Assembly: GCA_947652925.1 (NCBI GenBank)
Contig: CANTEW010000029.1
Span: 1 to 32,393, forward strand
Source: an uncultured Lachnospiraceae bacterium
GTDB taxonomy: Bacteria; Bacillota; Clostridia; Lachnospirales; Lachnospiraceae
DNA: 32,393 nt
Direction: 5' to 3'
Position 1 is the first letter of the stretch. Each line of letters begins with the position of its first letter. This document shows positions 7,503-22,804 of the stretch, one piece after another. The position numbers were made by a program, and so were the translations under genes. The notes under the pieces are model-generated. The model had not been told where the DNA came from and did no database searches. It was given only the letters and a program-made list of their open reading frames with translations.

Positions 7503-7916
7503 TCATTTTGATACTTCTCGCACAAATTCACCATAATCACGGATATATTCTCCCGGGTCATAGTGCGTACTCGCTAAGACTAAAAGGACTGAATCCTCAC
7601 TAAAATCATACATATCTTTCCATACCATTGCAGGGATGTAGACACCTGTATGTGGCCGGTCCAGGCAGTATATCGCCTCATTGCCCACTCCGTCTTTGAC
7701 TTTTATCTTACTTTTTCCGGCAACATTGATAAGAACAAACTCACTTTCTCGATTAGCATGTTGCCCTCTGATAACTTTTGGATCCGATCCATATATGTAG
7801 AACACTCTTTTTATATCAAAAGAAATATCCTGTTCCCCTTCTACGATGACTAAATGCCCTCTGTTATCTCCTTTTTGTGAGAATTCGAGCATCTGTATCT
7901 TGTTCATCTTATGCAT
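7503..7916 (-). CDS. dTDP-4-keto-6-deoxyglucose 3,4-ketoisomerase, FdtA/QdtA-like (WxcM cupin)
   Basis: A 137-residue single-domain cupin close to the usual length of FdtA/QdtA. The family pattern is clear: GDNRGHLVIVEG near the start, KRVFYIYG, the RGQHAN histidine motif, VLINVAGKSKIKVKDG and RPHTGVYIPAMVWKDMYDFS, then VLLVLAS. These enzymes move the keto group of dTDP-4-keto-6-deoxyglucose to C3, giving the substrate for a 3-aminotransferase such as the gene at 11433-12551. Whether the product is the galacto (FdtA) or gluco (QdtA) form cannot be decided by eye. ATG at 7916 lies seven bases after GGGTGG. It is separated from its aminotransferase by the FkbH-ACP-GNAT-VOC genes. Confidence 0.85.
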   Translation of the reverse strand: MHKMNKIQMLEFSQKGDNRGHLVIVEGEQDISFDIKRVFYIYGSDPKVIRGQHANRESEFVLINVAGKSKIKVKDGVGNEAIYCLDRPHTGVYIPAMVWKDMYDFSEDSVLLVLASTHYDPGEYIRDYGEFVREVSK

Positions 7917-7949
7917 TTAATATCCACCCTTTGTACTTAATATTTATCA

Positions 7950-8332
7950 TTACTATGATATAAATTTCCCGGTCATATCCGGATATTTATCTTTCCTCCA
8001 AGCTGGTTAAATGCATCGGCCATATTGTCCGTTCCAATTTTTGTTTATCCGCGTATTTGCTCCTGGCTTCAACCAACATCCACTGCCTATGATCCTGCCG
8101 AGTACAAACCCCAAAAAATCTCTTTTCAGAATCTCCATATTGCAGACCCACTGATCTCCATTGCTTATATATCTTTTGTTTAAGTGTTTTTCTGGACCGA
8201 TCGATCCTATATGGACTGCTATTGGGATAACAGTCAATATGGCCTTTCCACCCCCCCCTTATTCTGCAACCGTTTTTTTGATTTTTCTAATGTATTTACC
8301 AGATATTCCATCTGATTTTTTTCACTATGCAT
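7950..8332 (-). pseudogene. Decayed C-terminal half of a SAM methyltransferase
   Basis: Scattered frames on the minus strand resemble the second half of the methyltransferase at 1501-2232. The pieces are MEYLVNTLEKSKKRLQNKGG (from an ATG at 8332), then in another frame AILTVIPIAVHIGSIG, NMEILKRDF and GCWLKPGANTRINKNWNG, then MADAFNQLGG. They match the order LKKAMSWLSVGGGTIIAAVPNSESIHR ... GSLKQDF ... GGYWLKPLSNGQ ... AEMIGAFLRLGEG (given here in parts). The first break is in an eight-G run (8251-8258 as C). The N-terminal SAM-binding half is missing, so this is a true remnant, not just a sequencing slip. Confidence 0.65.
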
Positions 8333-8349
8333 AATAAATCCCTCTATGA

Positions 8350-8751
8350 TCATTTGTCCATTTCTATGATCTCAAATAGACCGATCTCTCCACTATATAA
8401 AAATGCTACGTCTCGACCACCTATTGCGATCGCTGGCTGTGGCTCTTTTATGAGTATACATTTATCATCCATGACCAATCTATCTATTGTTTTTTCAATA
8501 TGGTCGCACTCGAAGCAAAGATGATATGGCGTATTTTTTAACTGTTTCAATCCTTCACCAATGTCTACACTGCCTTCTCTTGGTGAGACAAGTTCGATCA
8601 ACATCTCCCCTGCACTTATAAAAGCGATATCGAGCAGTCGCTCCTTATCAAAGATGATATTTCCGACCATTCTCCCTATCCCCCATTTCAAAAACGCATG
8701 GATAGAACGGTCTATATCTTGTACCAGATAGCCTATATGATGTATCTTCAT
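8350..8751 (-). CDS. VOC/glyoxalase-fold protein (methylmalonyl-CoA epimerase-like)
   Basis: A 133-residue protein beginning MKIHHIGYLVQDIDRSIHAFL, the standard first strand and helix of the vicinal oxygen chelate fold, with ELVSP near the middle, PYHLCFECDHIEKTIDRL in the second half and FLYSGEIGLFEIIEMD at the end. H4/H5, E77 and the final FEIIE are where this fold binds its metal. ATG at 8751 overlaps the stop of the GNAT gene as ATGA and has GGAG six bases upstream; an in-frame upstream start is less likely. Its place after FkbH, ACP and GNAT genes suggests it acts on the acyl group or acylated sugar (epimerase, isomerase or lyase). The actual reaction is unknown. Confidence 0.75.
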   Translation of the reverse strand: MKIHHIGYLVQDIDRSIHAFLKWGIGRMVGNIIFDKERLLDIAFISAGEMLIELVSPREGSVDIGEGLKQLKNTPYHLCFECDHIEKTIDRLVMDDKCILIKEPQPAIAIGGRDVAFLYSGEIGLFEIIEMDK

Positions 8752-9350
8752 CTCACACTCCAATAATCGATCAAATCAGAAAATCTTATCCTGTTTTCAT
8801 GATAATCTTCAACAGTCAGCGATCGATGTCTATAACTAACATTATTTATCTGCCTGATGGATCCTTTGTCAAAACCCAATCGATCATCGATACCGTTCAT
8901 CACTTTATTGTCTGAACGATTATCATTTACCACAGTTTTGATCTGTAGACTATCAAATGCTATGTCTAATGCCAGCATCTTGGATTCCACGGCATAAGGC
9001 GCTTCATCCGCATAGTCTTCATCGATCATATAGCTCCCTTCCTCGCAGGATCTGCCGTTCAGATCTATCTCGTATAAACGGATCGTACCAAGGAACGTAT
9101 CTGTTCCCTTTTTATAAATCCCCCAATAAATATCATTGTTTTTTTTATCATATCCTTCAAACCAATGCTCCTGATCGGCAACAGTAAGTTCACAGCTCTG
9201 TGAAAGGAAATACCTGTTGCGTGGTTTATTGCGGAGCCTGACGATATCCCCGCTATCAGCTTTCGTCAAAGGTTTCAGATAAATGATCTTCCCATTGACC
9301 GTCTCTTTTCGGAACCTTAAGATAGAAGAGACCCGTTCATCCTGATCCAT
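8748..9350 (-). CDS. GNAT-family N-acyltransferase (RimJ/RimL-like), candidate sugar amine acyltransferase
   Basis: About 200 residues with a GNAT layout: IYLKPLTKADSGDIVRLRNK at the start, QEHWFEGYDKKNNDIYWGIY, then FLGTIRLYEIDLNGRSCEEG, and the helix of the acyl-CoA site around SKMLALDIAFDSLQIKTV. Two roles are possible. It could be PseH, the N-acetyltransferase missing elsewhere from the pseudaminic acid pathway. Or it could transfer an acyl group from the adjacent ACP to the amine of the dTDP-3-aminosugar; its position next to ACP favours this. ATG at 9350 has GGGGTG six bases upstream; an alternative GTG at 9359 would overlap the ACP stop as GTGA. Confidence 0.7.
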   Translation of the reverse strand: MDQDERVSSILRFRKETVNGKIIYLKPLTKADSGDIVRLRNKPRNRYFLSQSCELTVADQEHWFEGYDKKNNDIYWGIYKKGTDTFLGTIRLYEIDLNGRSCEEGSYMIDEDYADEAPYAVESKMLALDIAFDSLQIKTVVNDNRSDNKVMNGIDDRLGFDKGSIRQINNVSYRHRSLTVEDYHENRIRFSDLIDYWSVR

Positions 9351-9355
9351 ACTAT

Positions 9356-9598
9356 TCACCCCACGCTCTTTTGGATAATATCAAAAAGATGACCAACATT
9401 TTTCGTATCACGTATCTGCGCCGTAGTTAATTTTATGCCAAAGCATTGTTCCACTTCCATAATCAATTGCAAGTGGGTCAATGAATTCCATCCATCGATA
9501 TCCTCTGATGTCATACTGTCAGTAAGTTCAATATCTGTACATGCAAATACATCTTTAAAAATATCTTTAACTTTTTCTTTGATCTCATCCCTACTCAT
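9356..9598 (-). CDS. Acyl carrier protein of an FkbH cassette
   Basis: An 80-residue acidic helical protein. The phosphopantetheine site is IDGWNSLTHLQLI, with Ser39 as the attachment residue (D-x-x-S/N-S-L pattern). The MEVEQCFGI sequence that follows is helix III of typical ACPs. ATG at 9598 lies seven bases after GAGGAAG and overlaps the end of the FkbH gene; ATG at 9601 is also possible. Stand-alone ACPs next to FkbH carry the acyl unit that FkbH makes, so this is probably the carrier for an unusual hydroxyacyl substituent of a surface sugar rather than the fatty acid synthesis ACP. Confidence 0.88.
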   Translation of the reverse strand: MSRDEIKEKVKDIFKDVFACTDIELTDSMTSEDIDGWNSLTHLQLIMEVEQCFGIKLTTAQIRDTKNVGHLFDIIQKSVG

Positions 9599-11387
9599 CA
9601 TACACTTCCTCGATCGCATTCTCCCACTCGGTCTGTTCTATATCCATAAGTTCCAGTTCATAATCTTTTGTATCCCCTGAACTTTTAATCTGGTCAAATC
9701 CCAACTGTTCAAATATACAGCTCACCATATCATTTTTTTCTGTCCTGGCATAATGTCCGATGATCTTATCGCATCCATGTTGTAGCGCCATCTGGACGAT
9801 CTTCTTGATCGTAAAGAGTTCAACACCCTTTTTTAAAACACGACAACTCATACACCAATCTGATATGTCGCAGACGTTATCCATAAATCTCAAGATGATA
9901 CATGCTATGATACCATACCTGCTAAAGCGATCCTCCATTTGGACCGCATACAAACCATAGCTCGTATCTTTTTGCATGGATACGATCTTTGCTTCGGGAT
10001 AGCGGTGTGTCAAAAGATTAAATTGATTCGTTTTATTGATCAATTGCGTAAATCTGTTTACAGACTTTTCATCGATCTCAAAAAACTGCGCTTTCATTTC
10101 CAAGCTTTGCAAAAATTCTTGATAGTCCTTGAATCCTGTCTGCAGATCACTCCGTTTCAGTTCACTGACATATGTATCTGTCCTTCCTGCATCTTCTCTT
10201 GTGATCCTGTTCCATTCAAACGCATGGATATCATACAGATCCCTGACATACAGTGCAGGATCTTCTGACACATTGACTACTTCCACATCGGGAAGCACCT
10301 TCCTGACCAATTCCCTTTCCGTCGGATTATCATCGAAAAATATCATGCTGTCTGTCCCGATGTTCAACATACTAGAAATCTGCCGTATATTACTCGCTTT
10401 ATCTTTCCAGTTACAGACGAAACAAGCAATATCATCCATTGAAAGTTTCATAAAGATATTTTTCTTGAATACTTCTTTTGCGATATCTTCATCATTTTTG
10501 CTGCAGACAGCAAGGAGTACACCCCTCTTTTTCAAACTTAAAAGAAAATCTTGGAACGCTTGATACGCTTCACCTTCTGCATCATTGGGATCGAGATTGA
10601 CGCCATCAGACCCGACATCTCCTACAATCCCGCCCCATATCGTATCATCAAGATCAAACACAATGCATTTTTTTATCTTGCCCTTTATAGCCATGATCTG
10701 TTTGAGTAACATATCACAAAAATAACCGATATATCTTAAAGAGAATCCTAATTTACTCAGATAATATTGTCCTTCATCAAACCAGTTCCTCTTACCGATC
10801 TCCCTTGATAATCCTTCAGTATCTATGATCGTGACATGATCAGGTTTTGATACTGCAAACATAAGATTGATCCGATCATAAAACCCTGTCTCTGAATAAG
10901 CTACGTTTGCATTGATATTCCCCAGACTAGAAGGATAGGGGACAACAATATTGGAGAACAGGATCTGTGTGTTTTCCAAGCGTCCATGGATCTGCTCAAC
11001 TAGACGTCCCAGACCAGCTACTGCTTCTTCTACTTTTTGCTCCACTGTGTTTGGATCATCAAATAGATCTGGCAGGTTCTTGATATCCCGGTGATCCGGG
11101 AGCAATATCACAATGTCAGGCCTGAATGAGTACATCCCAGACTCATCATCGAACACTTCCATGATCATACTGTTATAATGACCTTCATATATATCTGCTG
11201 ATATCCTATTACATAGCAACATTGCTTTTAGCACAGAAGCGATATATTGTGTACTGCATGTCCCCACTAAGGCTATCCTCAATCCAGGATCATCATTGAT
11301 GTTTCTATTGACTATCGCGGCTTTTTTTAGGATAGCCAGATGGTCATCAAGAGCTGTATTTAAAAAATCATTGTACAGAGTCTGCAA
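9591..11387 (-). CDS. FkbH-like protein: HAD-IIIC domain with C-terminal GNAT-like domain
   Basis: A 598-residue protein with three parts. Residues about 35-215 form an SGNH-like N-terminal region (IALVGTCSTQYIASVL). The HAD-IIIC core starts at FDLDDTIWGGIVGD (244-257) and includes LAVCSKNDEDIAKEVF, MIFFDDNPTERELVR and VPDVEV-like LPDVEVV. Residues about 430-598 are GNAT-like, with NQFNLLTHRY. FkbH proteins convert 1,3-bisphosphoglycerate to an ACP-bound glyceryl unit, or make related hydroxyacyl-ACPs. Here the ACP gene overlaps the end of this one. Start is TTG at 11387 after AGGGGGTG; no closer ATG fits. This gene makes it likely that the glycan bears a hydroxyacyl group on an amino sugar. 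Confidence 0.88.
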   Translation of the reverse strand: MQTLYNDFLNTALDDHLAILKKAAIVNRNINDDPGLRIALVGTCSTQYIASVLKAMLLCNRISADIYEGHYNSMIMEVFDDESGMYSFRPDIVILLPDHRDIKNLPDLFDDPNTVEQKVEEAVAGLGRLVEQIHGRLENTQILFSNIVVPYPSSLGNINANVAYSETGFYDRINLMFAVSKPDHVTIIDTEGLSREIGKRNWFDEGQYYLSKLGFSLRYIGYFCDMLLKQIMAIKGKIKKCIVFDLDDTIWGGIVGDVGSDGVNLDPNDAEGEAYQAFQDFLLSLKKRGVLLAVCSKNDEDIAKEVFKKNIFMKLSMDDIACFVCNWKDKASNIRQISSMLNIGTDSMIFFDDNPTERELVRKVLPDVEVVNVSEDPALYVRDLYDIHAFEWNRITREDAGRTDTYVSELKRSDLQTGFKDYQEFLQSLEMKAQFFEIDEKSVNRFTQLINKTNQFNLLTHRYPEAKIVSMQKDTSYGLYAVQMEDRFSRYGIIACIILRFMDNVCDISDWCMSCRVLKKGVELFTIKKIVQMALQHGCDKIIGHYARTEKNDMVSCIFEQLGFDQIKSSGDTKDYELELMDIEQTEWENAIEEVYDE

Positions 11388-11432
11388 AAATACACCCCCT
11401 ACTAAAGCGTGGTCGAGTTGATAAAAATAGGC

Positions 11433-12551
11433 TTATTTTTCAAATATATTTATCGCATCGATCACTTTACTCTGTTCTGTTTCTGTCATGCCATTAAAGA
11501 TCGGTATAGAACATACCGTATCTGCATAATCTTCTGTGATCGGAAGAAAACCTTTACAATGCCCCAAATAACTATACGCCTCTGATAAGTGTGGTGGGAT
11601 CGGATAATGGATCAGTGTACCGATCCCCCTAGTCATTAAGTGATCTATCAGAGCTTTCCGTTTTTTGCATCTTATAACAAACTGGTGCCAGACAGTACGA
11701 TCCCCAGGACCAGTCCTTGGCATAGGTAAGATGATCGCATCATTATGGATCTCGTTTAGATATCTCTCTGCGATCCTTTCCCTTTCTTGTGTGAGCTTTT
11801 CCAAATGTTTCAACTTTACACGGAGCAGACCTGCCTGCATCTCATCTAACCGGCTATTGACCCCTATAACTTCGTTCTGATACCTTTTTTTGCTCCCATA
11901 GTTCCTAAACATACGGATATCAGACGCGACCTTTCCATTTTCCGTTATGATAGCGCCGCCATCACCAAAAGCTCCTAGATTTTTTGATGGGTAAAATGAA
12001 AAACATCCAATATCCCCAAACGTCCCAGTCATTTTTGTTCCATATGTCGTTCCATGAGATTGGGCACAGTCTTCCACTAACCGCAGACCATACTTTTGAC
12101 AAATGGCGGTCACTTTATCCATCCTGGCTGGGATACCATATAGATGTACAACAAGTATTGCTTTTGTACGTTTTGTTATTTTTTCTTCGATCTTATCTGC
12201 ATCAATACTGTAATGTTCATCTGGTTCAACAAAAATAGGAGAAGCGCCATTTATTGTGATCCCCATCACACTTGCGATATATGTATTGCCTTGCACAATG
12301 ACTTCGTCGCCTTCACCTATCCCTAAGGCACGAAAAGCTAATATCAATGCATCCAGACCACTATTCAGAGCAACACAGTATCTACTCCCACAGTGAGCTG
12401 CCCATTCTTGCTCAAATGCCTCAACCTCTTTTCCTAAAACATACCAGCCTGAACGGAGGATCTCTATTGCTTTTTCCTCATATTCCTTTTTATGAAGGTT
12501 GAACCCTCTGCCGAGGTCATTCGACATTATCTGTTTTTTCTCGGTCATCAT
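11433..12551 (-). CDS. dTDP-3-amino-3,6-dideoxyhexose aminotransferase, FdtB/QdtB-like (DegT/DnrJ/EryC1/StrS)
   Basis: A 372-residue PLP-dependent sugar aminotransferase. LNSGLDALILAFRALGIG and VQGNTYIASVMGI are the cofactor phosphate and ring contacts, VEDCAQSHG holds the PLP aspartate, and FSFYPSKNLGAFGDGGA carries the Schiff-base lysine, K190. The N-terminal FNLHKKEYEEKAIEILRSGWYVLG and the NSRLDEMQA motif match the 3-aminotransferase group (FdtB, QdtB, DesV) more than the PseC group. With the 3,4-ketoisomerase at 7503-7916 it would form dTDP-3-amino-3,6-dideoxyhexose. No rmlA/rmlB genes are in the window, so the dTDP-4-keto sugar must come from elsewhere. ATG at 12551, with AAGGA ten bases upstream. 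Confidence 0.87.
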   Translation of the reverse strand: MMTEKKQIMSNDLGRGFNLHKKEYEEKAIEILRSGWYVLGKEVEAFEQEWAAHCGSRYCVALNSGLDALILAFRALGIGEGDEVIVQGNTYIASVMGITINGASPIFVEPDEHYSIDADKIEEKITKRTKAILVVHLYGIPARMDKVTAICQKYGLRLVEDCAQSHGTTYGTKMTGTFGDIGCFSFYPSKNLGAFGDGGAIITENGKVASDIRMFRNYGSKKRYQNEVIGVNSRLDEMQAGLLRVKLKHLEKLTQERERIAERYLNEIHNDAIILPMPRTGPGDRTVWHQFVIRCKKRKALIDHLMTRGIGTLIHYPIPPHLSEAYSYLGHCKGFLPITEDYADTVCSIPIFNGMTETEQSKVIDAINIFEK

Positions 12552-12584: not shown

Positions 12585-13649
12585 TCAACGCTTCTTTCTG
12601 TCATACTGTTCGATCTTTTCCACTATCCTGTCACAGCCTTTCCCATCTACCAATGCCCGCTGCTCTGCGGCTATCTTTTTCCGTATATCGGGATGTCCCA
12701 TCAGGTATAGGATATGATCGATCAGCTTTTGTCCGTCCAATCTGTCGTGATACCCAATATATCTCAGCAGTCTTTGCCGTTCCAATGCTCTTATATGGAG
12801 GAGCTGGTTATCCGCGTATGCAAACGCGGCGGTCGGGATACCGCATGCTGCGAGTTCATATAATGTGGACCCTCCAGCAGATACTGCCAGATCACATCCT
12901 GACATGATCCCACACATATCACTTGGACGATCGTACAACAGGACTTGTCCATTATCCCTGAGTCCTGGATCGGTCCATATATCTTTTTCAAACCCGCCCC
13001 CGACTATGACATGGTATCTCAATCCCGAGAACCTCTCCTCTGACAGTACTATCCCCAAGATCTTTTCGGTCATATGGAATGGATCCCCATTCCCTGTCGT
13101 GATCAATACATCTGTGGCATCCTCTCTGACATCCTTTAGCGACTGATCAGAAAATCCTCTCCGCACTTGGTTATATCTAAGCCCTAATAAGAGCTGGGCG
13201 TCCTGCGTTCTTTCATAACCCATATCAAAAGCTGAGGCCGTGCCATTGACTAAGATATCTACCGGGTAAGGAAAAAGATCCAGGTCATCGATATAGACCA
13301 GACGATCTGTCAGATCCCTTAAACCTTTTAAAAAGTCGATGGATATATTATAATCATCAACGATCATGGCATCAGCTCTTTGTCTGATCTGTCCACGGAT
13401 AGCCATGAGATCGTCTTTCAATCCCTCAGGAATCCCATAAAAAAAAACCTGACCCTCAAAATGTGGTCCAGATGGTATCCTGACCACCTCTATCCCTGCT
13501 TTTTCTATAAGAGAGATCCCTTGTCCATACTTGCTAAAGAAGATGACTCTATGCCCGTGTCTCTTAAAGGCTTCTGCCAAAGAAATAGAACGCATGATAT
13601 GGCCCATGCCAGTCTGGGCGTTGCCATGTACGATAAAATATATCCTCAT
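12585..13649 (-). CDS. pseG: PseG: UDP-2,4-diacetamido-2,4,6-trideoxy-L-altrose hydrolase
   Basis: A 354-residue GT-B-fold protein. GMGHIMRSISLA (residues 14-25) is the PseG glycine-rich loop with the catalytic His17. DAMIVDDYNIS and LVYIDDL follow, and SAGGSTLYELAACGIPTAAFAYADNQ-type sequence (about 263-288) is the UDP-binding region. The enzyme removes UDP from the pseudaminic precursor, giving 6-deoxy-AltdiNAc for PseI. The start at 13649 overlaps the stop of the formyltransferase gene as ATGA, with GGAG upstream. The LegG hydrolase of the legionaminic pathway is of the NeuC type and looks different, which supports the Pse call. Confidence 0.85.
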   Translation of the reverse strand: MRIYFIVHGNAQTGMGHIMRSISLAEAFKRHGHRVIFFSKYGQGISLIEKAGIEVVRIPSGPHFEGQVFFYGIPEGLKDDLMAIRGQIRQRADAMIVDDYNISIDFLKGLRDLTDRLVYIDDLDLFPYPVDILVNGTASAFDMGYERTQDAQLLLGLRYNQVRRGFSDQSLKDVREDATDVLITTGNGDPFHMTEKILGIVLSEERFSGLRYHVIVGGGFEKDIWTDPGLRDNGQVLLYDRPSDMCGIMSGCDLAVSAGGSTLYELAACGIPTAAFAYADNQLLHIRALERQRLLRYIGYHDRLDGQKLIDHILYLMGHPDIRKKIAAEQRALVDGKGCDRIVEKIEQYDRKKR

Positions 13650-14218
13650 CTCTTCAGCACTCCCCTCATCCTATGATGATATATGGTCTCTTGGAGGTCT
13701 AGCGCCTTTCCTCCCAAAAGTTGGACCAATTCCTGCTTTTTATGGCAAGAACCTTCTCCTATCTGTTCCTTTGGCACGATCGACTGCTCTTTGATCCTCT
13801 CCCAATTGTCTTGGAAGAGGATCGATATCTCTTTATTCAATGTGTCATATGTTGTCTGGAATGTCTCGACATGTTCATCAAAAAATAATTCTTTTTGGAC
13901 GAGGATGCTCCCCTGATCCAACCCACTCGATACTCTATGGATCGTCACACCTTTTGGGGTGTCATCCATAAAACTCCAGAAATTGGGATCCGCGCCTCTG
14001 TTCCATGGGAGATATGATATATGTAGATTGATGATGCGGTCTCCGATCTCTCTGATGATCTCTCCGGGTATGATATGTCTGTAATTATAGCTGATCACAA
14101 AACTAGGCGAATAAAAGCGGATCTGAGATCCTGACAATCTGCCGCTAAAAAAATATACAGTCTCTCCCTGTTTCTCCAGCCATCTGCATAAGGGGAATGC
14201 ATTTTTATTATTGCTCAG
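13646..14218 (-). CDS. Formyltransferase-fold protein (Fmt-like), likely sugar N-formyltransferase, with probable CTG start
   Basis: About 190 residues. NLHISYLPWNRGADPNFWSF holds the catalytic Asn64 and His66 of the 10-formyl-THF transferases, and SSGLDQGSILVQ gives the third residue, Asp101. Family members usually start with a strand like ILILSNN. Here the matching SNNKNAFPLCRWLEKQGE is in frame, but no ATG, GTG or TTG precedes it before a stop at about 14229. CTG at 14218-14216, six bases after AGGGGGG and overlapping the TGA of the ATP-grasp gene, is the best start. The only other start, TTG at 14137, would delete the first strand. Likely role: N-formylation of a pseudaminic acid precursor. 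Confidence 0.78.
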   Translation of the reverse strand: MSNNKNAFPLCRWLEKQGETVYFFSGRLSGSQIRFYSPSFVISYNYRHIIPGEIIREIGDRIINLHISYLPWNRGADPNFWSFMDDTPKGVTIHRVSSGLDQGSILVQKELFFDEHVETFQTTYDTLNKEISILFQDNWERIKEQSIVPKEQIGEGSCHKKQELVQLLGGKALDLQETIYHHRMRGVLKR

Positions 14219-15243
14219 TAGGATCCCCCCTTTCTATCAAATCCTTCTTTTTCGATCCATGTGTTTGCAAGGTCTATATCTTGTCCGATCCCTTCTTTGA
14301 AGATCCTCTCGCCCAATACCCTTATACCGACCATAGGGGTTCTTTCATCGACATACTTTATCTTCTCTCTTTTACCGTCCAAAAGATCCAGCCACCATTC
14401 TACGTCCTTAAAACCAAGCTGGTAACGGAATCCCACTGTGCTGGATATCCTTGGATTTATCTCGAAGACATAGTAATCCCCATCCTGCTTGCGCATCTGG
14501 ATATTTATCGCACCCCTCAACTGGAGATGTCCAGCCACTCTCTCACAGATCTCCTGTATCCTCGGATCCATGACCCTCTCGACCCGCACACTCATGCCCC
14601 CAAATCCCAGACTCCTCTTGAATGCTATAGATAAGATATCTGTCCCATCTGAAAAGACCCCTGCTGTATATTCTTCATCTTCCGTGCCGATATATTCCTG
14701 GATGATCCCATCTTCTGTCTGTTGTAAGGATGACTCCAATGAAGGAGGATCATATGCGATCTTCACGGATCTGGATCCACATCCAGTATCTGATTTGATG
14801 ACCACAGGAAAATCCAGGCCATCCATGACCTCTCCCGGATACCATGTCCTTGGAGACGGCAGACCTAATCCCCTGACCATCTTGGCTGTCTTGTATTTAC
14901 TAAAAGATGTTGCAAGGATATGATGGTCATTTATCATCAGCTTGATCCCAGCATCATGGAACCTCTCCCGATGACTGTCAAAAAGCCGGATCTCCCCCTC
15001 GGTCATTGGCATTATACATGTTATGTCCCGCTTGATGCATTCTGCATATATAGCTTCTATATATCGTAGCCCTTCCTTATACGGAGGGGCCAAAAAAAAT
15101 CCATTCACATAGTCATAGCCTGCTACATATGGTGTGATATCGCATCCGACAAGATCACCCTCCCCATATGCCTGCCACATACAACGGGCAACACTCGAAC
15201 CGATATCCCCGCCTATCGCTGTGATCAGATACCGCTCTTTCAC
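14215..15243 (-). CDS. ATP-grasp ligase (CarB-like) in the pseudaminic acid cluster
   Basis: A 342-residue protein with a preATP-grasp Rossmann region (YLITAIGGDIGSSVARC, then MPMTEGEIRLF) and an ATP-grasp domain from about residue 110 to 300. FPVVIKSDTGCGSRSVKI is the nucleotide-binding loop, IIQEYIGTEDEEYTAGVF the adenine hinge, and FEINPRISSTVGFR the metal-binding Glu/Asn. ATP-grasp enzymes join a carboxylate, through an acyl phosphate, to an amine or thiol. Here it may acylate an amino group of the nonulosonic acid or its precursor with an amino or organic acid. GTG at 15243 overlaps the metallophosphoesterase stop as GTGA, with GGAGG seven bases upstream. Substrate unknown. Confidence 0.83.
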   Translation of the reverse strand: MKERYLITAIGGDIGSSVARCMWQAYGEGDLVGCDITPYVAGYDYVNGFFLAPPYKEGLRYIEAIYAECIKRDITCIMPMTEGEIRLFDSHRERFHDAGIKLMINDHHILATSFSKYKTAKMVRGLGLPSPRTWYPGEVMDGLDFPVVIKSDTGCGSRSVKIAYDPPSLESSLQQTEDGIIQEYIGTEDEEYTAGVFSDGTDILSIAFKRSLGFGGMSVRVERVMDPRIQEICERVAGHLQLRGAINIQMRKQDGDYYVFEINPRISSTVGFRYQLGFKDVEWWLDLLDGKREKIKYVDERTPMVGIRVLGERIFKEGIGQDIDLANTWIEKEGFDRKGGSY

Positions 15244-15938
15244 ATCCCTACCTCCGATCTCTTCCGGATATATGCCACGAGTCTCCCATCCTCTTCCCGC
15301 TCCATCAGATCAGCGATCAAGGCTCCTGTGTCCAATCCTACTGTGTGGAAAGAAGGATCGACAGACTCTGTATCCAATATACAATAACTGAACCCTTTAT
15401 GGTCCCTCGGCTGCCCTAATGAACCGGGATTCAGCACTATGGTATCCCCCACATATCTCATCATCTGATAATGGGTATGCCCTAATATCACGATGTCGTA
15501 TCCAGTATATAGATCTGTAGCATCGATCCTCGTATCTGGATATATCCGGCCATTGAGATGATCCGTCAGATCCCCATGGGCCACTGCGACCTTCAGCCCA
15601 TCAAGGCAGAGTTCTAACATATCGGGCAGACTGTATATAAACCCAACTACACTTTCAGAGGGGTTTAAGAGATAACTCATCCCATATCTATCGACATATC
15701 TATCCCTTTTTCCAAGGTCATCCAATGAGTCCAGGTACTGGGCATCATGGTTCCCTCTCACTGCATATAGTCCCGATATATCATCCAATCTCTCGATCAC
15801 CTCTTGTGGATGTGGGAGATATCCAAATATATCCCCGCAAAATATATATCCTGCTACATCGATCCCTTTTGTCTGGGAGAGCATCCCATCCAATGCCATC
15901 TTATTCCCATGTATATCCGAAAAAATAACATATCTCAT
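15240..15938 (-). CDS. Calcineurin-like metallophosphoesterase (YfcE/MJ0936 type)
   Basis: A 232-residue phosphoesterase with all the metal ligands: FSDIHGN (Asp8, His10), FCGDIFG (Asp36), VRGNHDAQ (Asn63, His64), AHGDL (His121) and GHTHYQ (His154, His156), then the NPGSLGQPRDH tail common in this subfamily. It is unusual to find such an enzyme inside a sugar pathway. Here it is coupled to both neighbours by ATGA/GTGA overlaps, so it probably removes a phosphate from, or hydrolyses a phosphodiester in, an intermediate of the same pathway. The ATG at 15938 has only a run of A with a G upstream. Confidence 0.85.
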   Translation of the reverse strand: MRYVIFSDIHGNKMALDGMLSQTKGIDVAGYIFCGDIFGYLPHPQEVIERLDDISGLYAVRGNHDAQYLDSLDDLGKRDRYVDRYGMSYLLNPSESVVGFIYSLPDMLELCLDGLKVAVAHGDLTDHLNGRIYPDTRIDATDLYTGYDIVILGHTHYQMMRYVGDTIVLNPGSLGQPRDHKGFSYCILDTESVDPSFHTVGLDTGALIADLMEREEDGRLVAYIRKRSEVGM

Positions 15939-16663
15939 CTTTTTTTATGATCTGCATGGAAACTATCTGTATCCCAGTCTAAGATGAACCGATCGATGAC
16001 ATCCTTTGCGATGATACTGGGGTCTTTTAAGATCCCATCCTTGTGATACGTTTTAAACAGATCTACATCGCCAAATTCTTCTCTTTCCGTTCGACGGATC
16101 TCTGCCTGCATAGGCGTGTCCACAACACCTGGCTCGTAAGAGACCACTCTTATATCTGGGTCTTCCAATCGCAACGTCTTTAAGAACATGTTCATATATG
16201 CCTTTGAAGCTGAATATAATGACCAGCCTTCTAATGGCCTGTAAGCCGCGCCACTGTCAAAATTGATGAACCTCAGTCTCACCCCATATCTTTTTTTATA
16301 TCTCATCAGAGCATCAGACAACATGATCGGATCGACCAGATTGATGTATAGATTCTCTAGCAGCCTTTCTTTTGGGAGACCGCCTATCCTCTTTATCGGG
16401 GATATTGAAAAAGCAGTAAAGATACAAGCTACATCAGCGGGACCGTTCTGTCGAAGATCACAGATCAGATGTTCTGTATCCTTGGACGGATCCCCCGTCC
16501 GCTCTTCCATCATCACTTTTGGATCGGTCTCTCCATACATCCCAATGAACTTTTTTCTGTCCCTGAACTGGCAGTATATCCTATCGATATGATCATCTGG
16601 GAGCAGCTGACTGACCAAAGGACCACCTATCCCCCCAGTAGAACCTGTTATGATAACATCCAT
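15935..16663 (-). CDS. Short-chain dehydrogenase/reductase (SDR)
   Basis: A 242-residue classical SDR. GSTGGIGG (residues 7-14) is the dinucleotide-binding glycine motif, FDSGAA supplies the catalytic serine region, and YSASKAY gives Tyr150 and Lys154. The substrate segment (EPGVVDTPMQ) is typical of oxidoreductases acting on small sugars or keto acids. PtmA-like SDRs occur in nonulosonic acid clusters, which is the closest parallel, but the substrate here is unknown. ATG at 16663 is one base after the PseI stop, and its stop overlaps the phosphoesterase start as ATGA. Confidence 0.83.
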   Translation of the reverse strand: MDVIITGSTGGIGGPLVSQLLPDDHIDRIYCQFRDRKKFIGMYGETDPKVMMEERTGDPSKDTEHLICDLRQNGPADVACIFTAFSISPIKRIGGLPKERLLENLYINLVDPIMLSDALMRYKKRYGVRLRFINFDSGAAYRPLEGWSLYSASKAYMNMFLKTLRLEDPDIRVVSYEPGVVDTPMQAEIRRTEREEFGDVDLFKTYHKDGILKDPSIIAKDVIDRFILDWDTDSFHADHKKR

Positions 16664-16664
16664 C

Positions 16665-17699
16665 TCATCTGCCCCCTATCTTTTCATAAGTCAGAGGTTC
16701 CCCATAAGATATCTCTTCTTTGGCTATCCTGCCCAATATATCTCCATATTCTCTCGGGGGCAGGCCATATCCAGGCCGGATCACCCGAATATTCTCACTG
16801 GTGAACCTCTCACCCTTTTCTATATCCTTCACCGCAAAGATCGAGCGTCTGAATACAAGGCTCCCTTTTTCTTGTTCTGAGGGTCCATACCTCACCACCC
16901 CCATAGCCTTTTCAGCTGCACGTATATCAGTGACCATCTGCCTGAACTCCTCCGGTTCCATTGAGAAGGAGGCATCCGGATTCTCGATCTCCCTGCTCAG
17001 GCAAAAATGTTTCTCGATCACCCGGGCACCCAGGGCCACCGCTGTAATGGCTGCCACTGACCCTAAGGAATGGTCAGACAACCCTACGGGGACACCAAAA
17101 TGATGTTCCATATCCTTTATAGTCACAAGATCCATCTCGTCTGAGACAGCTGGGTATGCGCTGGCACAGCGTAACAGGACGATCTGGTTATTCCCTTGTT
17201 CCCTTATAGCATCTACTGCTCCCTGTATCTCCTCAAGAGTCCCCATCCCTGTTGATAAGATGACCGGTCTCTTTTTCGAGGCTACATATCTGATCAGTGG
17301 GATATCCACCAGTTCGAATGAAGCGATCTTGTAAAAGTCCAACCCCATATCTTCCAGGAAATCCACAGATGTACGGTCAAAAGCGGTAGAAAGGAAATCC
17401 AGGCCTATCTTTTCAGCTTCTTCCTTCAACTCTGGCTGCCATTCCCATGGGGTGTACGCTTTCTGATATAACCGGTATAGATTCTCCCTATCCCATGTAC
17501 CCCCATCTATCTGGAAATACTCATTATCACAATCGATCGTCAGAGTGTCAGCAGTATAAGTCTGGATCTTGATGCAGTCGGCTCCAGCCTCTTTAGCTGC
17601 ATGTATGATTTCTTTTGCCCGCTCCATGCTCCCTGCATGGTTTGCTGACATCTCTGCAATGATATATACTCTATCTCTTAAACGTTTGATCAGATCCAT
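16665..17699 (-). CDS. pseI: PseI: pseudaminic acid synthase (NeuB family with C-terminal SAF domain)
   Basis: About 344 residues. The N-terminal NeuB barrel starts VYIIAEMSANHAGSMERA, with DCIKIQTYTADTLT, and has the PseI-type YQKAYTPWEWQPELKE rather than the NeuB/LegI form. FLSTAFDRTSVDFLEDMG, YKIASFELVDIPLI, GLSDHSLGSVAA and ALGARVIEKHFCL follow. The C-terminal SAF (antifreeze-like) domain spans about 285-344 (RRSIFAVKDIEKGE). The enzyme condenses 6-deoxy-AltdiNAc with phosphoenolpyruvate. Start chosen at ATG 17699 because GGAG lies nine bases upstream; an ATG at 17714 lacks a binding site. Confidence 0.9.
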   Translation of the reverse strand: MDLIKRLRDRVYIIAEMSANHAGSMERAKEIIHAAKEAGADCIKIQTYTADTLTIDCDNEYFQIDGGTWDRENLYRLYQKAYTPWEWQPELKEEAEKIGLDFLSTAFDRTSVDFLEDMGLDFYKIASFELVDIPLIRYVASKKRPVILSTGMGTLEEIQGAVDAIREQGNNQIVLLRCASAYPAVSDEMDLVTIKDMEHHFGVPVGLSDHSLGSVAAITAVALGARVIEKHFCLSREIENPDASFSMEPEEFRQMVTDIRAAEKAMGVVRYGPSEQEKGSLVFRRSIFAVKDIEKGERFTSENIRVIRPGYGLPPREYGDILGRIAKEEISYGEPLTYEKIGGR

Positions 17700-18166
17700 C
17701 CCACTATTCTCCATTGAAAAAATATTCTTTTATTTGCTTACTTTATTAAACTCAACCACTATCGGCTAAAGCAATCTAAAGTTGTCCCTGTTCAAAGTTA
17801 TTTCTTGTTTTTTTCGTTTTATCCTACTTCAAGGCTATCAAAAAATATTGCCTATGGTACTTTGTTACCTAAATTAGATAATATTTAATAACAGTTGTAC
17901 CACAGTATGTCTGTCCATCTCTCATTGATTTTATATAGCTTTCACTCCAAACTTATTACCCCAACCTATAATCCGATCCAAAGTTAAAGCTATGGTGTTG
18001 ACCTAAAGGTTTCGCCTTAGGGCAAGGGTTTTATCCCCCCCTTTATACAAAAAATAAAATGAAAACACTATATAAAAGACCATCATCCTCAATATGTCAA
18101 TCCTTTTTAGATTTATAGCCATCCACAATCTTTCATTCTATATTCTTTTGTATTATCTTTTACCTT
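17700..18166. other. Long non-coding gap splitting the Pse genes
   Basis: No gene is visible. The stretch is AT-rich between GC-richer Pse genes on its left and AT-rich ones on its right. It holds an imperfect hairpin (CCTAAAGG 18002-18009, CCTTAGG 18015-18021) and a seven-C run (about 18035-18041). A weak minus-strand promoter (TTGACA, 18100-18095) could drive PseI and the genes after it. Protein-like fragments appear on the minus strand in broken frames, so this may be where a gene or insertion element was lost. Confidence 0.4.
18072..18100 (-). promoter_or_regulatory. Candidate promoter for the pseI-side operon
   Basis: TTGACA (18100-18095) is a perfect -35 box; after 17 bases comes TTTTAT (18077-18072), a 4-of-6 match to a -10 box. 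It lies about 370 bases before the PseI start, in the longest gap of the transcription unit. The -10 box is weak, so this is tentative. Confidence 0.3.
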
Positions 18167-18862
18167 TTAGTTTATCCACCCTTTTATCACCCTATATTTC
18201 ATTTCTGCTATCTCCCAATCTTCCAGATTATCGATATCTTGTACTTCTAGATCACTCATGATCATAGGGAGGGCTTTTTTACCTATGATCGTTCCTGTTT
18301 TTAAAAAAGAGTTTATGTTAAATACATAGAACTGTCCACTATCATGGTAGACAGGACGTAAATCTTGTGAACGTACATTTAAATTTTCTGGAAACTGAAA
18401 TTTTGCGACCCCATTCTGTATAATGATTGCCCTTTGTGGCGGAAAAGAATAAGCAACTATGGGAAATACTGTATCTACATCATGTTCCTCTATCATTGTC
18501 ATAGCTTTATCTAATTTTTCTGCAGTTATAAATGGGGCTGTCGGATAAATACAACAACCATAATCAAATTTAATGTTATCTTTAATATAAATATCTAATA
18601 CCTCTTTTATCACATCTGACGTAGTTGCATGATCATTAGAATTCTCTTCCGAACGAAAGAAAGGGACATTCGCACCCGCTCTTAAAGAAATTTCGGCAAT
18701 CTCTTTATCGTCTGTAGATACCATAACTTCGTCAAAAACAGAACTTTCTAATGCTGCTTCTATTGAATAAAGAATAATTGGTTTACCACAAAAATTTTTT
18801 ATATTTTTCTTTGGGATGCGTTTGCTCCCTCCTCTAGCAGTTATGATAGCTATATTTTTCAT
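18167..18862 (-). CDS. pseF: PseF: CMP-pseudaminic acid synthetase (cytidylyltransferase)
   Basis: About 231 residues, the usual PseF length. The start MKNIAIITARGGSKRIPKKN holds the CTP-binding loop, KPIILYSIEAALES and VMVSTDDKEIAEI follow, and CCIYPTAPFITAEKL is the conserved YPTAP segment. HDSGQFYVFNI and LEVQDIDNLEDWEIAEMKY close the protein, as in PseF. It activates pseudaminic acid with CTP to CMP-Pse for the transferase. ATG at 18862, or the one at 18868, fits the family start and a GAAAG upstream; the open frame reaches further up but without a binding site. It is separated from PseI by 467 bases. Confidence 0.87.
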   Translation of the reverse strand: MKNIAIITARGGSKRIPKKNIKNFCGKPIILYSIEAALESSVFDEVMVSTDDKEIAEISLRAGANVPFFRSEENSNDHATTSDVIKEVLDIYIKDNIKFDYGCCIYPTAPFITAEKLDKAMTMIEEHDVDTVFPIVAYSFPPQRAIIIQNGVAKFQFPENLNVRSQDLRPVYHDSGQFYVFNINSFLKTGTIIGKKALPMIMSDLEVQDIDNLEDWEIAEMKYRVIKGWIN

Positions 18863-18911
18863 GATCATTATCGTACTTTCTTTTGTCTTATTTTGAAATA
18901 CCATATTAATA

Positions 18912-19073
18912 TCATCCTCTATTTCGAAGATTTTCAATTTGGATAATATCTATCCCAAGTGGACTGATAAGCAGATATTTCATTTCTTCAGGAGAGTATA
19001 TAGAAATGCCTATCTTGTTTATTTTTTCTTTACTTTTATCATATGATCTATCTATGACATAAAAGCATTTTTA
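18912..19073 (-). pseudogene. C-terminal remnant of an unknown gene
   Basis: On the minus strand, 53 codons read open without an upstream start codon (CFYVIDRSYDKSKEKINKIG, then ISIYSPEEMKYLLISPLGID) and stop at 18914-18912. The amino acid mix is protein-like, and the frame begins at the end of a perfect inverted repeat, as if the rest of the gene was lost there. I do not recognise the family. A nonulosonic acid transferase would be expected in such a position, but nothing in the piece shows that. Confidence 0.35.
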
Positions 19074-20592: not shown

Positions 20593-21789
20593 TCATTTCC
20601 GATAATTTTCAGTAACTTTTATTACAGCATGGATCACATCTTCAACATCCTGATCATCCATTTTAGGATATAAAGGGATACTCATGATGTTTTGATATAT
20701 TTCCTCTGCTTTTGGACATAACCCTTTTATATATCCGAGTCTCTGATAATATGGAAACCAATATACGGGTATATAATGGACCTGACACTGTATATTTTCA
20801 GCTGCCATAGCATTAAAAAATCCCTCTCGTGTACAGTTCAGTCTCTCCTGAACAAGACGTATGATATATAGATGGTGGCATGTATCAGATTCTGGGATCT
20901 CCTGTTGGAGAATGATCTCTGGTAATCCCATAAAAGCTTCATCATAAGCTTTAACAATAATTTTACGCCGTTCAATAAATCGATCGATCTTATTCATTTG
21001 ACTAGTGATCAATGCCGCCTGAAAATCTGTGATACGATAATTATACCCCAAAGAAATTTCTTCATAATACCAAGGTTCTTTTTGTGATACATCTGACATC
21101 ATTGATCTATCGCGTGTTATACCATGTGTGTGTGCCAATATTAATTTTTGATACAGTCCTTTTTTATTAGTGAGGACAGCACCACCTTCACCACCGGTGA
21201 TTGTTTTCACAGGATGAAAACTAAAACACGTCATATCTGCAAGTGATCCAACACATCTTCCATTATATTTTGTACCGATCGCATGAGCCGCATCTTCAAT
21301 AAAAATCAGGCCATATTCATTACATATATCTCGTATTTCTTTATTTCTGATCGACTGACCTGTAAAATCTACTGCAATGACAGCTTTTGTTTTTTCAGTC
21401 ACATGCGCACGGATACTATCTGGATCGATATTATATGTATCTGGATCGATATCAGCAAATACAGGGCGGGCTCCACAATATAACACACAATTTGCACTAG
21501 CCGCAAAAGTGATCGGGGTTGTGATCACCTCATCACCATATCCTATATCGGCTGCTATACATGCACAGTGTAATGCAGCTGTTCCATTGGATACAGCAAC
21601 TGCATATTTTGCCCCTGTATATATCTCCAGAGTGTGTTCTAACTCTTTTATCTTTGGACCACATGTAAGGTGATCACTGCGTAGCACTTGACTGACTGCT
21701 TCGATATCATCTTCTTCTATACATTGATGCCCATAAAAGATTTTTTTTTCACGAACAGGGTTGCCCCCATGGATCGCTAATTTTTCCAT
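20593..21789 (-). CDS. pseC: PseC: UDP-4-amino-4,6-dideoxy-N-acetyl-L-altrosamine transaminase
   Basis: A 398-residue DegT/DnrJ aminotransferase. LAIHGGNPVREKKIFYG and SDHLTCGPKIKELEHTLEIY are typical of PseC. SNGTAALHCACIAADIG binds the PLP phosphate, FIEDAAHAIGTKY gives the PLP aspartate, and SFHPVKTITGGEGGAV carries the Schiff-base lysine (K195). It transaminates the PseB product at C4. It follows PseB by 19 bases, with GGGGGC before its ATG. Its PLP-lysine motif HPVKTITGGEGG separates it from the 3-aminotransferase at 11433-12551. Confidence 0.92.
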   Translation of the reverse strand: MEKLAIHGGNPVREKKIFYGHQCIEEDDIEAVSQVLRSDHLTCGPKIKELEHTLEIYTGAKYAVAVSNGTAALHCACIAADIGYGDEVITTPITFAASANCVLYCGARPVFADIDPDTYNIDPDSIRAHVTEKTKAVIAVDFTGQSIRNKEIRDICNEYGLIFIEDAAHAIGTKYNGRCVGSLADMTCFSFHPVKTITGGEGGAVLTNKKGLYQKLILAHTHGITRDRSMMSDVSQKEPWYYEEISLGYNYRITDFQAALITSQMNKIDRFIERRKIIVKAYDEAFMGLPEIILQQEIPESDTCHHLYIIRLVQERLNCTREGFFNAMAAENIQCQVHYIPVYWFPYYQRLGYIKGLCPKAEEIYQNIMSIPLYPKMDDQDVEDVIHAVIKVTENYRK

Positions 21790-21808: not shown

Positions 21809-22804
21809 TCAATGTCTATCCAATGTTTCTTTTAAGAGAGCTTGGATATCTTTGATACTTAACCATTCCACATTAGTCCCTGAACTATATTCAAACTCCG
21901 GAGTGACCAGCTCTCCGCCTGGGATGATATCTTTCTGTCCCCACCAATTATAATTTGGATATATAATATAATGTTTTTTATATTCAAATGTACGCATAGA
22001 ATCTTCCCTAGTCACCATGATCTCATGTAACTTTTCACCTTCCCTGATCCCTACCTCCGGCATATCGCACCCCGGTAGCATTGCTTGTGCAAGATCGGTA
22101 ATCTTAAATGAAGGGATCTTTGATATAAAAGTCTCACCACCCCTTGCTTCTTTTAGTGCTTTTATCACCAACTCTACCCCCTGTTCGAGACTGATCCAAA
22201 AACGAGTCATACGGAAATCAGTAATTGGTAGTTTTGTCCCTCCATTATTAATGATGTCTCTAAAAAAGGGGATCACAGATCCACGACTCCCTGCAACATT
22301 ACCATATCTAACAACGGCAAATCGCGTACCGTCACCTCCAGAATATGCGTTAGCCGCTATGAACAATTTATCAGATACTAATTTTGTGCCTCCATAAAGA
22401 TTTATTGGATTTACTGCTTTATCTGTGGATAAAGCGACAACCTTTTTGACTCCTGCCTCTAAAGCCGCAGTGATGACGTTCATTGCGCCGTTTACATTCG
22501 TTTTGATCGCTTCGTTTGGATTATATTCACAAGCCGGGACTTGTTTTAAAGCTGCAGCATGTATCACATAATCGACACCCTTCATAGCCATTTTAAGTCG
22601 TGCTTCATCCCGTACGTCACCAATAAAATATCTCAATGTATCACGATACTTTTTATATTCATTCTCCATAATAAATTGTTTATATTCATCTCTAGAATAT
22701 ATTATTATTTTCTTTGGATTGTAATGGGCAAATATGTAATCAATAAATTGATGGCCAAATGAACCTGTACCTCCTGTTAATAAAATCGTTTTATCGTTTA
22801 GCAT
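21809..22804 (-). CDS. pseB: PseB: UDP-N-acetylglucosamine 4,6-dehydratase (inverting)
   Basis: A 331-residue extended SDR. TILLTGGTGSFGHQF is the NADP-binding loop, IYSRDEYKQ and YFIGDVRDEARL follow, HAAALKQVPACEYNP is a hallmark of PseB/FlaA1, STDKAVNPINLYGGTK holds the catalytic Asp/Lys and Y137-K141, and RFWISLEQGVELV closes the active site. It makes the 4-keto-6-deoxy sugar, with C5 inversion, that PseC transaminates. Both are first steps to pseudaminic acid. ATG at 22804, with GAGGGAT six bases upstream, 49 bases after the ABC transporter gene. Confidence 0.93.
   Translation of the reverse strand: MLNDKTILLTGGTGSFGHQFIDYIFAHYNPKKIIIYSRDEYKQFIMENEYKKYRDTLRYFIGDVRDEARLKMAMKGVDYVIHAAALKQVPACEYNPNEAIKTNVNGAMNVITAALEAGVKKVVALSTDKAVNPINLYGGTKLVSDKLFIAANAYSGGDGTRFAVVRYGNVAGSRGSVIPFFRDIINNGGTKLPITDFRMTRFWISLEQGVELVIKALKEARGGETFISKIPSFKITDLAQAMLPGCDMPEVGIREGEKLHEIMVTREDSMRTFEYKKHYIIYPNYNWWGQKDIIPGGELVTPEFEYSSGTNVEWLSIKDIQALLKETLDRH

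Follow-up and report, generated by a model that had tools for sequence, protein, structure and literature searches.

An ATP-grasp ligase module in the pseudaminic acid locus of an uncultured Lachnospiraceae bacterium as a candidate alternative to N-acyltransferases

Gene content of the locus

The stretch of DNA analysed here (the window) comprises 32,393 nucleotides and lies on contig 29 (CANTEW010000029.1) of the draft genome of an uncultured Lachnospiraceae bacterium, which amounts to 2.9 Mb in 100 contigs. Its minus strand carries a gene cluster for pseudaminic acid (Pse), in which the genes of a short-chain dehydrogenase/reductase (SDR), a phosphoesterase (PE), an ATP-grasp ligase (ATPg) and a formyltransferase (FT) are placed between pseI and pseG. 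The order found from the sequence and from hidden Markov models (HMMs) is pseB, pseC, a glycosyltransferase gene, pseF, pseI, SDR, PE, ATPg, FT and pseG; all window genes described below lie on this strand. PseB, C, F, G and I of the canonical pathway are present and exceed the NCBIfam cut-offs, which agrees with the initial annotation of this DNA, where the four additional genes were placed inside a Pse operon. These are the dehydratase/epimerase gene pseB (21809..22804; TIGR03589, 522 bits, cut-off 407.75), the aminotransferase gene pseC, source of the 4-amino group (20593..21789; TIGR03588, 467 bits, cut-off 423.5), the CMP-Pse synthetase gene pseF (18167..18937; TIGR03584, 291.5 bits, cut-off 205.7), the Pse synthase gene pseI (16665..17714; TIGR03586, 475 bits, cut-off 340) and the UDP-sugar hydrolase gene pseG (12585..13649; TIGR03590, 164 bits, cut-off 154).

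The gene coordinates and the tight spacing from pseI to pseG described previously hold as well. One base (16664) separates the pseI stop codon from the ATG of SDR, and the following genes overlap by ATGA (SDR/PE), GTGA (PE/ATPg), CTGA (ATPg/FT) and ATGA (FT/pseG). The pseI-to-pseG block (12585-17714) has a GC content of 43-48%, higher than the 36% of the whole window and the 33-38% of pseB, pseC and pseF. The block was likely imported as a unit, which fits its raised GC content.

The SDR (15935..16663) is a classical enzyme of the sepiapterin/benzil-reductase type (adh_short, E 3e-14; 150 bits against NF005381, under the cut-off of 258) and is proposed as the accessory reductase of the ATPg module. 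Its S137, Y150 and K154 are invariant in three aligned SDRs of the SDR-PE-ATPg trio. PE (15240..15938) is a calcineurin-type phosphoesterase (Metallophos_2, E 3e-28; above the YfcE family cut-off) and a proposed phospho-acid phosphatase, in which D8, H10, D36, N63, H64, H121 and H156 are kept in 24 of 24 sequences and H154 in 88%. ATPg (14215..15243, GTG start) has an ATP-grasp_3 domain (E 1e-14), a PylC-like N domain and the ATP-grasp signature of PF02655 and PF15632. It matches the carbamoyl-phosphate-synthase-like PRK12767 at E 2e-57, yet with 194.7 bits stays below the curated cut-off of 218. K116, K150, E191, E261, N263 and R265 are kept in all 25 sequences, and all of these but K116 are presumably ATP/metal residues. 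From its sequence, ATPg is predicted to be a carboxylate-amine ligase, proposed to act on a 4-amino sugar. The amide synthesis assigned to it by the initial annotation stands as the most likely activity, and an unusual N-substituent as the best guess.

FT (13646..14218, 190 aa from CTG; Formyl_trans_N, E 4e-16) has PseJ (6ci2, E 2.4e-37) as the best match among 59 PDB sequences, followed by linear gramicidin synthase (E 4e-29). N64, H66 and D101 are invariant in five aligned sequences and correspond to Asn-His-Asp, which we take to be the formyltransferase catalytic motif. The window FT is of the PseJ type, and formyl transfer to a Pse precursor is its predicted activity. It is similar to PseJ (6ci2, 6ci4) in its compact size (about 190 aa), the conserved N/H/D and the adjoining pse genes; unlike PseJ, it has no canonical start codon and adjoins an ATP-grasp module. 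The FT frame is open. Homologues start with M-K-[IV]-L or nearly so, and ATG, GTG and TTG are absent at this place, where ATC or CTG (14218) occurs instead. A run of six G (14225..14230) lies six bases ahead of the CTG, within the last ATPg codons. A CTG start, slippage or frameshifting at the G run, a phase-variable tract and an assembly indel are all possible, and one may speculate that a weak start codon could reduce the PseJ share of the product.

FT matches at 1e-10 were found in 26 of 150 genomes of the window's family, and three besides the window were below 1e-30. Two of these three sit with pse genes (L006/L040 and L007/L041; L numbers denote loci). The third (L005/L039) has neighbours resembling FkbH and acyl carrier protein (ACP), and no pse gene was recognised within 18 kb.

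ATP-grasp ligases in Pse loci

Within a set of 36 Pse loci, ATPg stands in for PseH or another N-acyltransferase. The loci were chosen by PseI alone (TIGR03586, above the cut-off) and came from 33 of 150 genomes in the order of a Jeotgalibacillus genome (L054). They were annotated using BLAST, Pfam, an open reading frame (ORF) check of L232 and a six-frame scan at E 1e-5 with HMMs partly trained on these same loci; L206, L224 and L229 are short pieces. GNAT was found in 22 loci, FT in 4 (L219, L221, L223, L231) and ATPg in 10 (L054, L199, L205-L210, L241, L245). No locus held ATPg together with GNAT or FT, and none held neither. The one-sided Fisher p of 3.9e-9 assumes independent loci and is overstated, as the loci are related. 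The ten ATPg form three separate tree lineages, several with long branches; the replacement therefore took place more than once rather than as a single inherited event. Those of L241 and L245 are distant (BLAST against the reference sequences gives E 5e-10 and 2e-6, respectively), and Pfam recognises ATP-grasp domains in them.

Some of the loci with acyltransferases have features of their own. PseG-GNAT fusions, with hydrolase and N-acetyltransferase in a single protein, occur in 2 of the 22 GNAT loci (L226:9539-10966, L234:6743-8410). In L228 (9490-11420), GNAT adjoins a protein that by eye resembles deacetylases and a weak second FT-like match; this row suggests exchange of the N-5 acyl group.

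Seven of the ten ATPg loci carry a phosphatase no more than two genes from ATPg. Four families are represented: calcineurin-type (L054, L199), HAD (L208-L210), histidine phosphatase (L241) and ComB (L245). The HAD gene of L209 (8265-8926), beside the ATP-grasp gene, is broken into two ORFs. Searches with ATPg also revealed two flagellar Pse loci (L166, L167) in which the ligase is partnered with a HAD phosphatase and no PE.

In the flagellar Pse loci L241 (5920-8439) and L245 (5750-8494), the ATP-grasp gene stands beside ComA together with histidine phosphatase or ComB, respectively. ComA, recognised with Pfam, is (2R)-phospho-3-sulfolactate synthase, and ComB is 2-phosphosulfolactate phosphatase. 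As judged by these assignments, the two enzymes would plausibly supply sulfolactate, a 2-hydroxy acid; the presence of ComA in both loci thus makes it plausible that the phosphatase yields a hydroxy acid for ATPg. The product predicted for L241 and L245 is N-sulfolactoyl Pse. These loci give the clearest hint of a general sequence of phospho-acid, phosphatase, hydroxy acid and ATP-grasp ligase, which could extend to the window by analogy only, because their ATPg are far from that of the window.

The PE scan of the species-genome collection returned at least 254 relatives, and the best 80 loci were kept. ATPg is no more than two genes from PE in 21 of these, and adding the window, L044 and L045 gives a set of 24 PE-ATPg loci. 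Two of them, L056 and L057, resemble each other, and several lie on short contigs. Relatives of PE are uncommon: counting the window, they occur in 7 of 150 genomes of the family at E 1e-15 and in 3 of 398 genomes of the phylum at 1e-25. An SDR touches the PE-ATPg pair in 20 of the 24 loci, being of the extended type in 17 and classical in 3, and a DegT aminotransferase is no more than eight genes away in 18. In eight loci (window, L044, L045, L046, L054, L056, L057, L063) a NeuB-family gene lies no more than eight genes away; in the other 16, some on short contigs, none was found within this distance. PE-ATPg is therefore a general amino-sugar module that entered Pse loci. The phosphatase partner tracks ATPg phylogeny: PE-partnered ligases, including that of the window, form one side of a single branch with support 98/96 in a tree whose rows and labels were chosen by the authors. 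A single co-evolving family of extended SDRs adjoining PE-ATPg was considered and rejected, since the tree needs five label changes in 30 rows (shuffled mean 10), so that adjacency to the pair is clustered and does not define one group.

The trio SDR-PE-ATPg between pseG and pseI recurs in L044, L045 and L199, so that the arrangement goes beyond chance, and the order pseB pseC spsF pseG SDR PE ATPg pseI is found both in L044 and in the flagellar locus L199 of a different genome. The initial annotation had considered recurrence of its four genes with pseG and pseI in other genomes, as well as their occurrence mostly away from Pse genes. The former is confirmed for the trio in these loci, PE and ATPg occur together in 24 loci, and FT proves separable; the latter applies to the PE-ATPg pair, with 16 loci lacking a nearby NeuB-family gene, and not to the classical-SDR version, as all four annotated cases (window, L044, L045, L199) are Pse loci. 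Five other matches to the classical SDR at E <= 1e-25 in the class sample (G633, G761, G857, G750, G728; one on a 6.4 kb contig) had no adjoining glycan genes recognised; this SDR by itself is therefore no marker of the module.

Proposed N-acylation routes and their alternatives

The explanation held here to be slightly more likely than not is that two interchangeable routes acylate the 4-amino group, one through PseJ and the other through the SDR-PE-ATPg module, and that the window encodes an N-glyceroyl-like Pse. The acceptor would be the 4-amino group of UDP-2-acetamido-4-amino-2,4,6-trideoxy-L-altrose, which becomes N-7 of Pse. PseJ would transfer a formyl group to it. For the module, we infer that PE dephosphorylates a phospho-hydroxy acid (phosphoglycerate being the simplest case), that SDR adjusts a keto or hydroxy group of the acid, and that ATPg converts the acid into an acyl phosphate and couples it to the sugar amine, both routes presumably running in the organism. 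Glycerate is a tentative first guess for the acid, with rather less than an even chance, made because the Neisseria ligase PglB2 is credited with a glyceramido sugar. In the window, PseJ and ATPg may be competitors for one amine, successive enzymes in a series or enzymes with different sugars as acceptors. Competition is ranked first, since in other loci each of the two is found without the other.

Several observations weigh against this explanation. The window itself has PseJ and a PseH-like GNAT besides the module. GNAT or FT was detected by the HMM scan on the ATPg piece in 5 of the 24 PE-ATPg loci (window, L045, L062, L063, L080), the acyltransferase of L080 being on the opposite strand. 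A separate ATPg search gave a second set of 25 genomes, of which 24 loci were scanned for acyltransferases; GNAT or FT is on the same piece as ATPg in two (L201, L202), and likewise in L164 and L254. L062, L080, L164, L201 and L254 were not recognised as Pse loci; a NeuB-family gene is present in L202 and L063. Hexapeptide acyltransferases, which are outside the HMM scan, occur in L046, L047 and L203, and 16 weaker NeuB-family matches were excluded from the 36 loci. The loci chosen by PseI thus show strict replacement and the others a looser form of it, and the wider count of exceptions outside the 36 loci lowered confidence in the explanation by a small amount. As to the phosphatase, none was found nearby in 3 of the 10 ATPg loci (L205, L207 and the 5.6 kb contig L206). 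HAD or PE is directly beside ATPg in 11 of the 25 genomes of the second set and not in 14, and PDB relatives of PE are named diadenosine tetraphosphatase or phosphodiesterases.

The PseI-like gene of L202 is below the family cut-off; this gene, an ATP-grasp gene and the genes of a protein that by eye resembles deacetylases and of GNAT stand in a row there (7953-12092), which puts an ATP-grasp enzyme and an acetyltransferase in one locus. PseH above the TIGR03585 cut-off (93.1) was found in none of five genomes (those of the window, L044, L045, L054 and L046), a weak negative, as the cut-off is strict and was passed by 1 of 14 control genomes. Weaker GNAT matches are present in all five. The window genome (G000) has five, the best of 53.7 bits on a different contig.

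Alternatively, the two enzymes might act in series: ATPg would couple an amino acid to the 4-amino group, for instance serine that the phosphatase has freed, and the amine of this residue would then be formylated by PseJ. The CTGA overlap of the two genes in one coupled run is consistent with this route, as are the next-best PDB matches of FT to subunit A of linear gramicidin synthase, whose formylation domain presumably acts on an aminoacyl group, and the GNAT directly after ATPg in L045 and L164. The series is nevertheless unlikely, as neither a formyl- nor an acetyltransferase was found in the trio-bearing loci L044 and L199, and L223 has PseJ without ATPg.

It is also improbable that PseJ alone serves Pse and the trio acylates another amine, for example that of an amino sugar made by the genes following pseG. 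This row encodes the second DegT aminotransferase DegT2 (11433-12551), FkbH-like protein, ACP, a PseH-like GNAT (8748-9359; 35 bits, cut-off 93.1), VOC and WxcM-like (7503-7916) proteins, the WxcM and VOC labels being assigned partly by eye. Together the genes of 7503-12551 probably serve a second amino sugar, a 3-amino-3,6-dideoxyhexose with an ACP-borne acyl group. A relative of DegT2 with 61% identity occurs in L045, also with both kinds of acylating enzymes, and PE-ATPg is mostly found in loci lacking a NeuB-family gene, which would suit a separate amine. On the other side, L044, L054 and L199 combine PE-ATPg and the pse set with one DegT-type aminotransferase (PseC) in view, and the trio sits between pseI and pseG. 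The row of L045 contains GNAT, the trio, a class-III aminotransferase-cluster protein and an aldo-keto reductase (partly by eye); the last two could provide a second amine supply. No class-III aminotransferase was seen among 20 window proteins scanned.

A still less probable alternative regards PE as a recycling phosphodiesterase or nucleotidase outside acid synthesis, with ATPg taking a free metabolic acid. The names of its PDB relatives and the 14 second-set loci without adjacent HAD or PE speak for it; the dedicated phosphosulfolactate phosphatase ComB and HAD enzymes in a similar place, and the single group formed by PE-partnered ATPg, speak against it. That the four genes constitute a single fixed pathway to one substituent, as the initial annotation had it, agrees with their tight overlap and the block GC above that of the window and is very unlikely, because FT and the trio are found apart in other Pse loci: PseJ-type FT with pse genes and no recognised SDR, PE or ATPg in L041 and L223 (18-19 kb examined) and likewise in L040 at a contig edge, and the trio without PseJ in L044 and L199. 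Among ten other PE-ATPg genomes, window-FT matches at 1e-6 were absent from two and weak, in longer frames, in eight (8.6e-12 to 9.5e-7).

More broadly, the explanation of two interchangeable routes can be extended, at somewhat below even odds, to the view that the N-acyl position of Pse is a plug-in slot for acetyl- or formyltransferases or ATP-grasp ligases, the ligases having been acquired repeatedly and independently and each drawing its acid from a dedicated supply (a phosphatase from one of at least four families, in some cases joined by SDR or ComA). If so, there would be Pse species undescribed in the literature searched, including N-sulfolactoyl-Pse (L241, L245), and the window organism would make both acyl-Pse and formyl-Pse, or an acyl group that carries the two substituents together. 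For some Pse clusters with no recognised PseH, the ATP-grasp/phosphatase module provides an answer that can be tested, and gene content could then serve to predict unusual nonulosonic acids by rule. Since Pse-type sugars coat flagella and surface polysaccharides, chemistry at the N-acyl position may affect host and phage recognition.

Comparison with known systems

PseH and ATPg occupy the same operon slot in the 36 loci and have the same proposed acceptor amine; they belong to unrelated families, PseH using acetyl-CoA and ATPg presumably using ATP and a free acid. No description of an ATP-grasp/phosphatase pair in the place of PseH was found in the open-licence PMC literature, most subscription journals being outside this search. 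A Pse with a trihydroxyhexanoyl group is said to occur in Treponema denticola; this was not confirmed in the literature searched and is not used as evidence. Geobacillus flagellin islands were reported without PseH in the available part of PMC5109656.

Two other systems were considered and set aside. The acinetaminic acid route of A. baumannii (aciABCD) is a module based on legionaminic acid (Leg) with short-chain dehydrogenases, and the term "ATP-grasp" is absent from PMC5595891. The Bordetella wbm locus was of no use as a guide, as the corresponding part of PMC3849452 gave no gene functions. According to sequence clustering, the gene after ATPg in L059, L060 and L069 belongs to a family of WbmS-like deacetylases, with Pfam support for the L069 member.

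The Shewanella flagellin modification locus sfmABCDE is similar in its nonulosonic acid glycan, one substituent of which is presumed to lack nitrogen, and in having a reductase and an ATP-grasp protein. It differs in the 412 aa ATP-grasp_4 protein, a PseI-like protein and a methyltransferase, and a phosphatase is unmentioned in the consulted sections of PMC3765264. In the C. difficile type B flagellin locus, a carbamoyl-phosphate-synthetase-like ATP-grasp protein (CDR20291_0245) is encoded near an FdtB-like aminotransferase; unlike the window, this locus produces a sulfonated peptidylamido-glycan and no Pse, as far as the excerpts of PMC5207246 describe it.

Bacillosamine-like settings occur among the loci as well. 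L193 and L194 have DegT, PglC-like, ATPg and HAD genes in a row, and GNAT or FT was not found in these rows. In L254 (7704-13969), which was sampled in the order around the Rubrivivax locus L061, the row is PglC-like, ATP-grasp, HAD, FT, DegT and PglF-like. It is only suggestive as regards ORF8, the gene after pglB2 of Neisseria, for which an identity as a HAD phosphatase gene was considered and not confirmed. In the part of PMC3338715 available, ORF8 is called a conserved hypothetical protein.

PglB2 itself is an ATP-grasp/phosphoglycosyltransferase credited with the glyceramido-acetamido trideoxyhexose (GATDH), as stated in the accessible parts of PMC11130364 and PMC6959607. In the PglB2 system, and by proposal in Pse loci, an ATP-grasp enzyme would replace the N-acetyltransferase on a UDP-4-amino-4,6-dideoxy sugar, and ORF8 is inserted as an extra gene alongside pglB2 (PMC11130364, PMC6959607, same parts). 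An ATP-grasp gene without a 4-N-acetyltransferase is seen in 10 of the 10 ATPg loci among the 36, yet the window, L045 and others hold a formyl- or acetyltransferase. PglB2 is fused to a phosphoglycosyltransferase and belongs to the bacillosamine route, whereas the window ATPg is free-standing (342 aa, with ATP-grasp and PylC-like N domains only), belongs to the Pse route and is accompanied by a calcineurin-type phosphatase and an SDR. PseJ is already known, and for PglB2 the acylation of a 4-amino sugar by an ATP-grasp enzyme has already been proposed.

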